A stretch of DNA of 41,294 bases. It comes from Candidatus Rokuibacteriota bacterium. GTDB taxonomy: Bacteria > Methylomirabilota > Methylomirabilia > Rokubacteriales > CSP1-6. Position numbers and translations under genes: made by a program. The notes beneath the pieces were generated by a model. The model made no database searches, was not told the DNA's origin, and was given only the letters and a program-made list of their open reading frames with translations. Below are positions 29,030 to 32,719 of this stretch, one piece after another. The DNA lies in assembly GCA_003221635.1 (NCBI GenBank), contig QHSR01000247.1:1-41294 (forward strand), read 5' to 3'. The first letter of the stretch is position 1. Each line of letters opens with the position of its first letter.

Positions 29030-29209
29030 TTATCGCATCGCGAGGGTTCTCACGGGATCCCGACGGCGGCGACGCGGGATCGGGCCGCGTCCGCGTGTCA
29101 GCCAGGTCTTACGCCCGACCGCGAAGCTCCGCAGCTCACCGAAGTAGTCGATCACACAATCGATCCGACGTGGCGAGTCCGACTTGAAGAGCACTGTGTG
29201 GGTGATCAT
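29030..29209 (-). pseudogene. Possible Dabb-domain remnant
   Basis: The frame from ATG 29209 reads MITHTVLFKSDSPRRIDCVIDYFGELRSFAVGRKTWLTRG and then becomes arginine-rich. MITHTVLFK and ELRSFAVGRKT match two adjacent parts of stress-responsive Dabb proteins, which normally have about ten more residues between them and about 60 more after. I read it as a decayed or truncated copy. It is only 59 codons long and lies in a gene-poor stretch. Confidence 0.35.
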
Positions 29210-29484
29210 GACCCCGAAACCACTCAAGTTTCATGCCACCGGTGAGAACTTGCGTTTTCCGAACGGTTGCGAGGGCACGCGACGCGGGCTGTTCCGAAAG
29301 AGAACGCGGGGTTCCGCCGCGAGGCAGCCCGGGCGCCGCCGCCGCGCAATTCCGTCGAACTCTGTGGAGGTCGGACAGAATTCCCGCAGGCGGGTATTCC
29401 ACCCGAATACGACGATGGTCGTGCAGGTCGTCGACCTCCTCCGCGGGCCTCAGGACCGGGACGCTGGTCTGGCTCCTTGGCCTG
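29210..29484. other. Intergenic stretch after the response-regulator gene
   Basis: Together with the Dabb remnant this forms about 555 bases with no intact gene. No terminator is obvious. One near-match to the regulator-type palindrome seen at 32.2-32.3 kb (GTTCC-GAAAG-AGAAC, 29291-29305) is present, with no sigma-54 promoter that I could find beside it. AT content is slightly higher than in the neighbours. Confidence 0.35.
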
Positions 29485-30831
29485 CTAGCGCTCGATCCCG
29501 TACTCCTTGAGCTTGCGCCAGAGCGTGGTGCGGCCGATGCCGAGCGCCTCGGCGGCGCCGGAGTGGTTGCGGCCGAAGCGCTCCAGCGTCTGGAGAATAT
29601 GGACGCGCTCGGCGTCCGCGAGGCTGATCTGCCGGGGAAGCGCCGGCGAGGGACCCAGCTGGAGCCCCGCCGACACGTGCGGCGGCAAGTCCTCCGGACC
29701 GACGGAGTCGCTTCGAGCCAGGATGGCCGCGCGCTCGAGGGCGTTCTCCAGCTCTCGCACGTTCCCTGGCCACGGGTAGCGGAGGAGGCGTTCGAGAGCC
29801 TCGGGCGCCAGACGGAGCCGGCGGCCGAGCTTGCCGGCCGACCGCGCGAGGAAATGCTCGGCCAGCGCGGGAATGTCCTCGCGGCGGTCGCGAAGGGGCG
29901 GGAGAACGACCTGGATGACGTTGAGGCGATAGAAGAGGTCCTCGCGGAAACTTCCCTGGCTGATCAGCGCCGCGAGGTCGCCGTGCGTGGCCGCGATCAC
30001 GCGCACGTCGATGGTCGCGGGCTGCGTCGCGCCGAGCCGCCGGACCTCGCCGCTCTGGAGTGCGCGGAGGAGCTTTACTTGAAGAACGCCGGACATCTCG
30101 GCGATCTCGTCCAGGAACAGCGTGCCGCCGTCGGCCTCTTCGAAGAGGCCGAGCTTGTTGACGGCGGCGCCGGTGAACGCACCCCGCATGTAGCCGAAGA
30201 GCTCGGACTCGAGCAACGTCTCGGGCACCGCGCCGCAGTTCACGGCCACGAACGGGCGCGTCGCGCGCGCGCTCGCGTGGTGGACGGCCTTGGCGATGAC
30301 CTCCTTGCCAGTCCCGGATTCACCCTGGATCAAGAGCGTGGCATCGGTCGGCGCCACGCGCTGCACGAGGTCCAGGACCGTCAGCATGGCCGGGGACTGC
30401 GCGATCAGGCCCGGGAGACCATAGCGCTCCCGGAGCTGGGCGCGCAGGTTCTCGTTCTCGCGGCGCAGCGCGCGACCGGCCAGCGCCTTGTCGATGCGGT
30501 GATTGAGCTCGTCCGGCTCCTGCCCCTTCTCGAAGTAGTCGAGGGCGCCGAGGCGGATCGCCTCCTTGGCCGACTTCCATTCGGCATAGGCGGTGAGGAG
30601 GATCACCTCGGTCGCAGGGGCGTGGGCCTTGGCCGCCCGCAGCACGTCGAGGCCGTCGCCGTCCGGCATCCGGAGATCGGTGACGACGAGGTCGAAGACC
30701 TCCTCCGCGAGGCACTTCGTCGCGGCGGTGACGCCGTCGGCCTCGAGCACACGGTGGCCTCGCTTGCGGAGCAGCAGGGACAGTGTGCTCCGCGCCGCCG
30801 GCTCGTCGTCCACGACCAGCAGGTGCGCCAT
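29485..30831 (-). CDS. NtrC-type sigma-54-dependent response regulator
   Basis: 448 residues in the standard order. The receiver domain (1-115) has acidic pocket DDE 8-10 and phospho-acceptor D52 in VVTDLRMPDGDG. The AAA+ sigma-54 activator domain (about 140-375) has Walker A GESGTGKE at 170-177, the sigma-54-contacting GAFTGA loop at 217-222, Walker B GTLFLDEIAEM, RLGATQPATIDVRVIAATHGDL, FREDLFYRLNV and YPWPGNVRELENALERA. The C-terminal Fis-type helix-turn-helix is HSGAAEALGIGRTTLWRKLKEYGI. All functional motifs are intact. It starts 2 bp after the kinase gene, so they form a two-component pair. Predicted targets are the two sigma-54 promoters in the divergent region at 32.15-32.49 kb. Confidence 0.95.
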   Translation of the reverse strand: MAHLLVVDDEPAARSTLSLLLRKRGHRVLEADGVTAATKCLAEEVFDLVVTDLRMPDGDGLDVLRAAKAHAPATEVILLTAYAEWKSAKEAIRLGALDYFEKGQEPDELNHRIDKALAGRALRRENENLRAQLRERYGLPGLIAQSPAMLTVLDLVQRVAPTDATLLIQGESGTGKEVIAKAVHHASARATRPFVAVNCGAVPETLLESELFGYMRGAFTGAAVNKLGLFEEADGGTLFLDEIAEMSGVLQVKLLRALQSGEVRRLGATQPATIDVRVIAATHGDLAALISQGSFREDLFYRLNVIQVVLPPLRDRREDIPALAEHFLARSAGKLGRRLRLAPEALERLLRYPWPGNVRELENALERAAILARSDSVGPEDLPPHVSAGLQLGPSPALPRQISLADAERVHILQTLERFGRNHSGAAEALGIGRTTLWRKLKEYGIER

Positions 30832-30833
30832 GC

Positions 30834-32150
30834 TCAGGCGGCCTCGAGGGGAAACAACAGTGTCACGCGCGTCCCGTGGCCGGGCGCGGAGTCGATCTCG
30901 ATACGACCGCCGTGCGCGGCGACGATGCGCTCAGCGATCGTGAGGCCGAGCCCGCTACCGTTCGGCTTGCCGGAGTAGAACGGCTCGAACACCCGCGGAA
31001 GACTCTCGGAGGAAATCCCGGTCCCGGTGTCGCTGATCGCGAGGGCGACGTCGCCATTCTGCCGGGCGACCTCGAGGGACAACCGGCCGCGGCCGTTCAT
31101 CGCCTCGACGCCGTTCAGCGCGACGTTCCAGAGCACCTGGATGACCTGGTCGCGGTCGAAGGGGAAGCGTGGGACGGCCGGGTCGACCGCCACGCGCACG
31201 TCCACGCGGGGCGCGCGCGAGCGGTCGTCGCGGATCAGCGCGCTCACGTGCTCCACCACCTCGCGGATGTCGCCGGGCGCGCGCCGCGCCTTCTGGGGTC
31301 GGGCGAAGTGCAGGAAGTCTGAGAGGATGCGGTTGAGCCGTCGTGCCTCGGTGCGGACCGCCGCGAGCGTCGCCGAGCGCTCGGCGGGCGTGAGCCCCGC
31401 CTCGTCGGTGAGTAGCGCAGTGGCGTTGACGATGGCCGCGAGCGGGTTGCGGATCTCGTGCGCCATGCCGGCGGCGAGCTCGCCCGACGTCGCCAGGCGC
31501 TCAGCCTCGCGCAGGCGCGCGTGGAGATGCTCGCTCTCGCCGCGTGCCCGCTCGAGCACCATGATGATCACGGCGAACGTCGAGAGGAAGTAGAGCGTGA
31601 TGAACACCGCGTGCACCGCCATGTATCCGGCCGACCCGGGGTCGGTGTTCACGAACTGCGTCGCGATGCGATGGATGCCCCAGAGCGTCAGAAGTCCGGC
31701 CAGAAGCCGCTCAGCTCGAAATCGGGTGATGCAACCGCGCGCCGGCCAGAACAGCACGCCGGCCGCGATCTGGACGACGCCGAGGCTCGCGCCCACGATC
31801 CGCTGACCCGCGTCACCGCCGCTCGCGAGCGCCAGCAGCGCTGTCACCCCGGCTCCCACCAGGACGTCCCGCCCGCGCAGTCGGTAGTCCCAGCGGTGCG
31901 CGAAGGCGGCGGCCAGCGTGAAGCCGACGGCGGCGACGGTGACCGCGTCGGTGGCGAAGCTCGGATGGTAGACGTTCAGAACGAGCCCGTCCACGAGCCT
32001 GAGGCCTTTGGACAGCGTGTACGCGCCCCACGCGAGCAGCAGGTACTCGAAGAAGCGCACGCGGTGCGACGAGTAGAGGTACGCGAAGATCAGGAGCTGG
32101 ATCGCGAAGGCGAGCGTCGAGACGAACGTCAAGACGAGCGGCGCCGGCAT
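30834..32150 (-). CDS. Membrane histidine kinase, partner of the sigma-54 regulator
   Basis: 438 residues from ATG 32150, directly behind GGGAGGATGAA. The N-terminal 200 residues contain about seven membrane segments (for example LVLTFVSTLAFAIQLLIFAYLY, AVTVAAVGFTLAAAFAH, AVFITLYFLSTFAVIIMVL) and no clear periplasmic sensor domain, so it may sense a membrane-soluble or membrane-state signal. The cytoplasmic part has the H-box AAGMAHEIRNPLAA with phospho-acceptor H231, an N-box (VLWNVALNGVEAM), and the ATP-lid motifs DTGTGI, FEPFYSGKPNGSGLGL and HGGRIEI. No PAS domain is visible. It lies immediately downstream of a strong -24/-12 promoter match, implying that its own regulator activates it. 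Confidence 0.93.
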   Translation of the reverse strand: MPAPLVLTFVSTLAFAIQLLIFAYLYSSHRVRFFEYLLLAWGAYTLSKGLRLVDGLVLNVYHPSFATDAVTVAAVGFTLAAAFAHRWDYRLRGRDVLVGAGVTALLALASGGDAGQRIVGASLGVVQIAAGVLFWPARGCITRFRAERLLAGLLTLWGIHRIATQFVNTDPGSAGYMAVHAVFITLYFLSTFAVIIMVLERARGESEHLHARLREAERLATSGELAAGMAHEIRNPLAAIVNATALLTDEAGLTPAERSATLAAVRTEARRLNRILSDFLHFARPQKARRAPGDIREVVEHVSALIRDDRSRAPRVDVRVAVDPAVPRFPFDRDQVIQVLWNVALNGVEAMNGRGRLSLEVARQNGDVALAISDTGTGISSESLPRVFEPFYSGKPNGSGLGLTIAERIVAAHGGRIEIDSAPGHGTRVTLLFPLEAA

Positions 32151-32183: not shown

Positions 32184-32199
32184 GGCAAATCGCGTGCCA
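32184..32199 (-). promoter_or_regulatory. Sigma-54 promoter facing the kinase-regulator operon
   Basis: On the minus strand the sequence reads TGGCAC-GCGAT-TTGCC, an almost perfect match to the -24/-12 consensus TGGCAC-N5-TTGCA. The implied start of transcription is near 32173, about 22 bases before the kinase ATG, leaving room for its ribosome site. Confidence 0.8.
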
Positions 32200-32240
32200 C
32201 GCGAGCCCGGCGGAAATCGAGTCACGTCCGAGACAGGCGC

Positions 32241-32334
32241 GTTCCAGTTCGAAACATCGTTCCATCGCGGAACACCCGTCGCGACGACCGCGCAACGGTT
32301 TCATCGTGAACCCCCCCGGGTTTCGCCCTGGAAC
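32241..32334. promoter_or_regulatory. Cluster of GTTYC-N5-GRAAC palindromes, probable activator sites
   Basis: Three sites fit one pattern: GTTCC-AGTTC-GAAAC (32241-32255), GTTCC-ATCGC-GGAAC (32259-32273, a perfect palindrome) and GTTTC-GCCCT-GGAAC (32320-32334). A fourth, GTTTC-ATCG-TGAAC (32298-32311), is degenerate. They lie about 75-155 bases upstream of the minus start site and 85-165 upstream of the plus one, the usual distance for enhancer sites of NtrC-type regulators. Confidence 0.7.
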
Positions 32335-32387
32335 CGGCGCCGGTCCCGCCGCGATCGCCTCCTCAATGATTCCGTTCGGTTGGCGGT

Positions 32388-32403
32388 TGGCACGCTCGAT
32401 GCC
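32388..32403 (+). promoter_or_regulatory. Sigma-54 promoter facing the VQAPRG small-protein gene
   Basis: TGGCAC-GCTCG-ATGCC keeps the essential -24 GG and -12 GC with correct spacing. The implied start near 32414 gives a leader of about 78 bases before the ATG at 32492. Confidence 0.68.
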
Positions 32404-32491: not shown

Positions 32492-32677
32492 ATGACACGC
32501 ACGAACGCACTCGCAATCGCGCTCGCAACGGCGCTGATGGCCACCACCGCGTACGCCGAGCGGTCACCGATCGACGACGTCCAGGCGCCGCGCGGCCAGG
32601 ACGTGCAGGCTCCGCGCGACCGCCCGGATGAGGTCCAGGCCCCGCGCGGCCAGCAGGTGCGGCCGCCGCGCGGTTGA
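32492..32677 (+). CDS. Small secreted VQAPRG-repeat protein
   Basis: 61 residues from ATG 32492 behind AAAGGAGAAAG. The first 22 residues (MTRTNALAIALATALMATTAYA) form a classical Sec signal with an AYA cleavage site. The mature 39-residue part is ERSPIDD followed by four tandem units: VQAPRGQD, VQAPRDRPDE, VQAPRGQQ, VRPPRG. It contains no cysteine, aromatic residue or lipobox and is Pro/Arg/Gln-rich, so it is likely unstructured and periplasmic or released. I recognise no family. The repeated PRG could bind a surface, metal or partner, or be a processed peptide; all of these are inference. It is preceded by a sigma-54 promoter match and followed by a strong hairpin, and is divergent from the kinase-regulator operon. 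Confidence 0.85.
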   Translation: MTRTNALAIALATALMATTAYAERSPIDDVQAPRGQDVQAPRDRPDEVQAPRGQQVRPPRG

Positions 32678-32684
32678 TGCGCGC

Positions 32685-32719
32685 GCCGGGCGAGCGAGTC
32701 TCATCCTCGCTCGCCCGGC
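32685..32719 (+). terminator. Hairpin terminator after the VQAPRG gene
   Basis: GCCGGGCGAGCGAG (32685-32698), seven-base loop, then its perfect reverse complement (32706-32719): a 14-bp GC-rich stem starting 7 bases after the stop codon. Only TTG follows instead of a T-run, so it may be a pause/stability hairpin rather than a classical intrinsic terminator. Confidence 0.7.

Follow-up and report, generated by a model that had tools for sequence, protein, structure and literature searches.

Paired palindromic sites between divergent sigma-54 promoters as the likely control region of a self-activating two-component switch in Candidatus Rokuibacteriota

The window, which is the whole 41,294-nucleotide stretch of Candidatus Rokuibacteriota DNA analysed here, carries a sensor kinase gene and a response regulator gene on the minus strand and, divergent from them, the gene of a small predicted secreted peptide. 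Between the two transcription units lie a putative sigma-54 promoter for each direction and a set of short palindromes. The features of this part of the locus are as follows.

29485 to 30831, minus strand: NtrC-type response regulator with a receiver, a Sigma54_activat domain (GAFTGA) and a Fis-type HTH, GIGRTTLWRKLKEYGI
30834 to 32150, minus strand: sensor histidine kinase, an N-terminal predicted seven-helix membrane domain followed by HisKA and HATPase_c
32184 to 32199, minus strand: predicted sigma-54 promoter of the kinase-regulator operon, TGGCACGCGATTTGCC, nearest site 41 bp away
32241 to 32255: kinase-side palindrome, copy 1, GTTCCAGTTCGAAAC, exact; the pair is kept in 12 of 12 close loci
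32259 to 32273: kinase-side palindrome, copy 2, GTTCCATCGCGGAAC, exact, 18 bp from copy 1
32298 to 32312: degenerate peptide-side palindrome, GTTTCATCGTGAACC, one mismatch; GGTTCACGATGAAAC on the minus strand
32320 to 32334: peptide-side palindrome, GTTTCGCCCTGGAAC, exact, 53 bp to the -24 of the peptide promoter
32388 to 32403, plus strand: predicted sigma-54 promoter of the QAPR peptide gene, TGGCACGCTCGATGCC
32492 to 32677, plus strand: small predicted secreted peptide of 61 amino acids, a signal peptide ending in AYA and then (D/E)VQAPR repeats
32685 to 32719, plus strand: perfect 14-bp inverted repeat, GCCGGGCGAGCGAG-N7-CTCGCTCGCCCGGC, directly 3' of the peptide gene

A structure prediction with a mean pLDDT of 85 gives seven long helices for the N-terminal 220 residues of the kinase. 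No convincing Pfam family was found for this segment, and a sequence search of the sensor domain against the PDB returned no match. The seven-helix model was also considered for homology to GPCRs, but all Foldseek matches had E values above 0.02 and no homology is claimed. Among 95 genomes of the phylum, the sensor domain is present in 17, all from one family and spread over seven genera; the carrier records named here are Candidatus Rokuibacteriota metagenome bins, and these genomes are incomplete.

Which protein, then, would read the palindromes? The sequence-only reading had nominated the adjoining regulator, and our analysis points to the same protein, which is a complete NtrC-type activator with a recognition helix that tracks the carriers, in a genome with rpoN (PF04552, E 1.5e-60). 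Its receiver matched Response_reg with an E value of 2e-25 and has a TDLRMPD segment in all carriers read, its AAA+ domain matched Sigma54_activat (E 7e-70) and contains GAFTGA, and its Fis-type HTH, the predicted DNA-binding part, matched HTH_8. The recognition helix GIGRTTLWRKLKEYGI occurs in nearly all carriers, with minor changes in the most distant ones, and is absent from all 11 same-genome paralogues with readable C-termini. The genome has about two dozen NtrC-type activators.

Positions 32241-32334 of the window hold three exact GTTYC-N5-GRAAC palindromes and one near-copy, set between divergent TGGCAC-N5-(T/A)TGCC elements. The letters and coordinates of the three copies and the degenerate fourth, as first described from the sequence, were verified, and the sigma-54 elements proposed on either side (TGGCAC-N5-TTGCC on the minus strand and TGGCAC-N5-ATGCC on the plus strand) were likewise found and are kept in 12 of 12 close loci. 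The distance of 75-165 bp upstream of both starts given before is right: measured from the inferred starts to the centres of the sites, it is about 76-155 bp for one promoter and 88-167 bp for the other. In the 41 kb window, TGGCACGCGATTTGCC and TGGCACGCTCGATGCC are the only matches to TGGCAC-N5-TTGC with at most one mismatch. The plus-strand promoter has ATGC at -12, not TTGC. The kinase and peptide promoters of all 12 loci show the GG core and the GC core at 10-bp spacing, with TGGCAC-N5-TTGC as their context. Each of the two divergent promoters also has a GATTTC-like block some 19-20 bp before its TGGCAC (window positions about 32210-32222 and 32367-32375), and the block on the peptide side is well conserved among relatives.

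The window contains 7 matches to the motif with at most one mismatch, compared with 2.5 expected from shuffles, and such counts by themselves are only moderately unusual. Pattern searches of the window's genome found 19 exact GTTYC-N5-GRAAC sites in 5.17 Mb, three of them here, and 4 sites for a reversed-pattern control. With so few exact sites genome-wide, three within 94 bp are not background. The choice of pattern was controlled by ranking all 99,840 palindromes with a five-base half-site, one two-fold position and spacers of 0-12 on the 300-bp regions upstream of the kinase (12 regions). GTTYC with a spacer of 5 ranked first, with 33 matches in 12 of 12 regions; the runner-up had 12, and what follows is mostly variants of the leading pattern. 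It was also the only one of the 99,840 patterns with 3 matches in the window's own region.

Phylogenetic footprinting compared the window with the 11 close relatives whose upstream region is complete. Loss of the sites in relatives, the outcome that the sequence-only reading had set against itself, was seen in none of them: 12 of 12 loci retain the two -24/-12 elements together with three or more sites, down to about 66% sensor-domain identity. These 12 related loci are not independent events, yet the flanking and spacer bases have widely diverged while the specified bases are fixed. When 26 distinct exact sites were aligned, nearly all had a purine at position 6 and a pyrimidine at position 10, and the three central bases carried no information. 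The pattern GTTYC-N5-GRAAC was thereby borne out and sharpened to GTTYCR-N3-YGRAAC, positions 6 and 10 having been left open before. Most relatives share the deviation of the degenerate site at 32298-32312, which reads GGTTCACG.TGAAAC on the other strand.

On the kinase side, the two copies are 18 bp apart in 11 of 12 loci and 19 bp apart in one. The end of this pair lies 41-43 bp from the -24 element, except in two loci with 51-53 bp, about one helical turn more. For the peptide promoter, 52-56 bp separate -24 from the nearest site. The gap between the neighbouring sites of the two pairs is 38-50 bp where all four match and 36-81 bp where three match. From locus to locus the two pairs shift by tens of bp relative to each other, whereas the spacing within the kinase-side pair is constant, and we therefore read the sites as two separate enhancer pairs, one per promoter; the cluster proposed earlier is real but does not form one group.

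The specificity of this arrangement was measured by a composite search of the 57 family genomes, with G(T/C)GCCA followed by 38-56 bases and the palindrome, and with the hits tallied by hand. TGGCAC composites gave 21 hits in 15 genomes, all of them kinase carriers, and all hits lie at or within a few kb of the kinase. This corresponds to 15 of 17 carriers, compared with 0 of the 40 other family genomes. The 11 hits to TGGCGC (GCGCCA-type) composites were set aside as background, being scattered and mostly in non-carriers; no TGGCAC composite was found outside carriers. The motif had been put forward for a genome scan near -24/-12 elements, and the outcome of that scan points to a very small regulon, essentially this one locus and centred on it. 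Other matches to the sharpened motif in the window's genome, at C16, C69 and C188, were rejected as targets, as they have no TGGCAC at the right distance and the one at C16 is inside a gene.

A third target at 29030-29325, downstream of the regulator, had been overlooked by the sequence-only reading. It consists of a site pair, a sigma-54-like element and a small ORF.

29030 to 29209, minus strand: small ORF of 59 amino acids with the core FKxDSxRRIDxVIDYFGE, start codon near the predicted transcription start
29223 to 29238, minus strand: third sigma-54-like element, TGGCATGAAACTTGAG, with TTGA, not TTGC, at -12, in relatives too
29291 to 29305: third-target palindrome, GTTCTCTTTCGGAAC on the minus strand, one mismatch, 52 bp from -24
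29311 to 29325: degenerate partner site, GTTCCGCCGCGAGGC, one half intact, 20 bp from 29291

At the position of the degenerate partner, relatives have exact or near-exact copies of the site. Their site pairs are 19-20 bp apart and are followed, after about 50-53 bp, by TGGCA(C/T)-N5-TTGA (CGGCAC in two). The complete arrangement was found at 8 loci of the genus including the window, and the ORF motif is present at the locus in 9 of 9 genus genomes and in the more distant carrier G078. The ORF is read as a protein because third-position changes dominate (214, compared with 105 and 122). G078 has the ORF and a QAPR peptide side by side, both downstream of a single site and promoter, and the ORF of G012 comes after the QAPR peptide; on account of this adjacency the two small products seem to belong to one regulon. 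In most relatives about 28-31 bp separate the start of TGGC from the ATG of the third target (29209-29238 in the window), which would give a nearly leaderless message. The ORF core (window 29030-29209, counterparts L120-L129) also slightly resembles a segment of the PRPP synthetase of the same genomes, MKRASARRITAVLPYYGYAR, in 12 of 21 residues. Shuffles never rose above 9, the comparison is post hoc and its E values are weak; the likeness could be that of a microprotein mimic or a coincidence.

The layout departs from this scheme in the four most distant carriers, G020, G066, G070 and G078, whose sensor identity is 44-50% where measured. In G070 and G078 the site pairs are rearranged. G066 has a single site and neither a QAPR nor an IDYFGE ORF nearby, and its changed helix (ISRTTLWRKL) together with that single site fits, weakly, a co-variation of helix and site. 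G020 keeps the site pair without a recognised QAPR gene. Its pair (G020:C5, L119/L155) precedes another secreted ORF (MKRLTLALLLAFTALSGVGVAS...), at a distance of about 560-580 bp upstream from the kinase, and this different ORF behind the site pair suggests an exchange of target.

The 61-residue ORF of the peptide has a good ribosome-binding site and a typical signal peptide, MTRTNALAIALATALMATTAYA, followed by ERSPIDDVQAPRGQDVQAPRDRPDEVQAPRGQQVRPPRG. The repeat unit of the peptide family is (D/E)(V/I)QAPR. A counterpart divergent from the kinase was found in the nine relatives read directly. The inverted repeat at 32685-32719 is probably the end of the transcript; similar GC-rich repeats follow the peptide gene in relatives. 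It has no T run and so is not called by the terminator scan, which detected no terminator with a T run in this region. No Pfam or NCBIfam family matched the peptide, and a literature search on QAPR peptides returned no mention of the motif. QAPR matches occur in 51 of 57 family genomes and in 0 of the 38 other genomes of the phylum. Most family genomes encode larger secreted proteins in which a CPxEV...AK segment and, at the C-terminus, a segment of the EAEAACKAGDM type enclose (D/E)(V/I)QAPR repeats, up to about 40 of them. Examples are L038:1561-2385 (G000:C64) and loci L080-L107, mostly with QDVQAPRG/S repeats and without a Pfam or NCBIfam family.

Based on these results, we consider the region, with a probability of about 0.88, to be the control region of a self-activating two-component switch with three targets, namely its own operon, the gene of the secreted peptide and another small gene. 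Computed directly are the sites and promoter elements, their spacings and conservation, the gene content and the locus specificity. How would it work? The seven-helix membrane sensor kinase would pass phosphate to the NtrC-type regulator, which, once phosphorylated, would bind the GTTYCR-N3-YGRAAC pairs 41-56 bp upstream of the -24 elements. DNA looping and ATP hydrolysis would then open sigma-54 polymerase at three promoters, those of the kinase-regulator operon, the divergent QAPR peptide gene and the small ORF downstream of the regulator. Activation of its own operon by the regulator would amount to positive autoregulation. Phosphorylation, binding, looping and activation we infer from established NtrC/sigma-54 biology; the mechanism of the NtrC family is reviewed in PMC7175178. 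A literature search on sigma-54 in Rokubacteria returned nothing. For a sigma-54 regulator of an uncultured soil lineage, the motif offers a predicted recognition sequence that is backed by phylogenetic footprinting, and the regulon is compact enough to be rebuilt in a laboratory host.

The switch resembles ZraPSR (HydHG) of Escherichia coli and Salmonella, in which a kinase and an NtrC-family sigma-54 regulator control a small exported protein and themselves, and in which zraP is divergent from zraSR. The ZraR regulon is almost confined to its own locus, zraP and zraSR (PMC7657598). Against this likeness, the regulator scored 405.8 bits, below the ZraR cut-off of 760, and the kinase 194.2 bits, below the ZraS cut-off of 479; the product is a QAPR repeat peptide, not a zinc-binding periplasmic chaperone like ZraP; and the predicted seven-helix sensor, the extra third promoter and the binding motif are different. 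By analogy, the circuit is one that would work like ZraPSR without being a member of that system. The best NCBIfam score of the regulator, 450 bits, is to AtoC, a regulator that acts through two inverted sites of 20 bp placed upstream of its sigma-54 promoter (PMC3118216). The AtoC cut-off is 714 bits and the kinase scored 224 bits relative to 646 for AtoS, and motif and targets differ from those of AtoSC. The PrsK/PrsR pair of exosortase (PEP-CTERM) systems also combines a multi-TM kinase without a large periplasmic domain with an NtrC-type regulator, but the scores are again below the cut-offs (380.5 of 502.6 bits for PEP_resp_reg and 85.6 of 300 for PEP_his_kin). FhlA-type enhancer sites are palindromes with TTTC...GAAA half-sites in a sigma-54 context; their half-site letters are similar to those found here while spacer and flanks differ, and this likeness serves as a lead only. 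The regulatory logic is familiar; the sensor, the motif and the two small products look like new families.

What may the peptide do once exported? Tentatively, and apart from the probability given above for the switch, we place its action outside the cytoplasm, where it would be the output and perhaps also the feedback arm of a ZraPSR-like envelope-sensing circuit; a feedback or envelope role is our leading guess, ahead of a signalling role. It is also possible, at odds well short of even, that the peptide is a ZraP-like periplasmic accessory protein or chaperone that damps the kinase under envelope stress. The gene arrangement and regulon are as for ZraR, the peptide carries a signal peptide, and a title cited in PMC7657598 reports ZraP as a repressor of ZraSR. 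The peptide is, however, unrelated to any Pfam or NCBIfam family, and its repeats in the window contain no Cys or His.

It is unlikely that the peptide is instead a secreted signal sensed by the seven-helix kinase in positive-feedback cell-cell signalling. The tight genetic linkage of peptide and sensor, the repeat units with a conserved Arg that would suit proteolytic release, and the architecture of positive autoregulation are consistent with such a role, but no processing or export genes are seen beside the peptide gene, and Foldseek gave no significant receptor match for the sensor. Furthermore, since large QAPR proteins occur in the 51 of 57 family genomes and the kinase in 17, the repeats would be useful without the kinase. 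The broader proposal of a lineage-specific peptide-signalling circuit, in which the kinase senses the multi-copy QAPR peptide and one regulator serves three paired-enhancer promoters, with the small cytoplasmic RRIDxVIDYFGE ORF included, we regard as a long shot; if true, the large QAPR proteins, under another sigma-54 enhancer, would form a wider peptide system.

With about two dozen NtrC-type activators in the genome, the palindromes could be bound by another regulator, for example a repressor, and the sigma-54 promoters around them served by an unlinked activator. We give this little credence, as the site with TGGCAC is found only beside this kinase-regulator pair and only in carriers, the phasing of the sites relative to -24, seen at three promoters, fits an activator, and the HTH of the regulator is co-conserved with the site. 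A chance cluster or functionless remnant, to which the single-window counts would leave some room, has a negligible probability in view of free spacer bases, fixed specified bases and conservation in all 12 loci.

The locus also exposes a secreted QAPR-repeat family that is present in most family genomes and matched nothing in Pfam, NCBIfam or the searched literature. Many genes of the large QAPR proteins have a TGGCA-N6-TTGC element about 80-190 bp upstream. In the window's genus and beyond, this element is preceded by two different conserved enhancer-like sites, GGCAGAATGCC and GGCACAACGCC, about 35 bp apart. Judging from these upstream elements, at least two types of enhancer probably place QAPR products under the control of sigma-54, so the family would apparently be controlled twice by sigma-54, through two different enhancer motifs. 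Upstream of the large QAPR genes at L038, L091, L096, L099, L097, L101 and L106, TGGCA-N6-TTGCT is preceded by GGCAGAATGCC and GGCACAACGCC.
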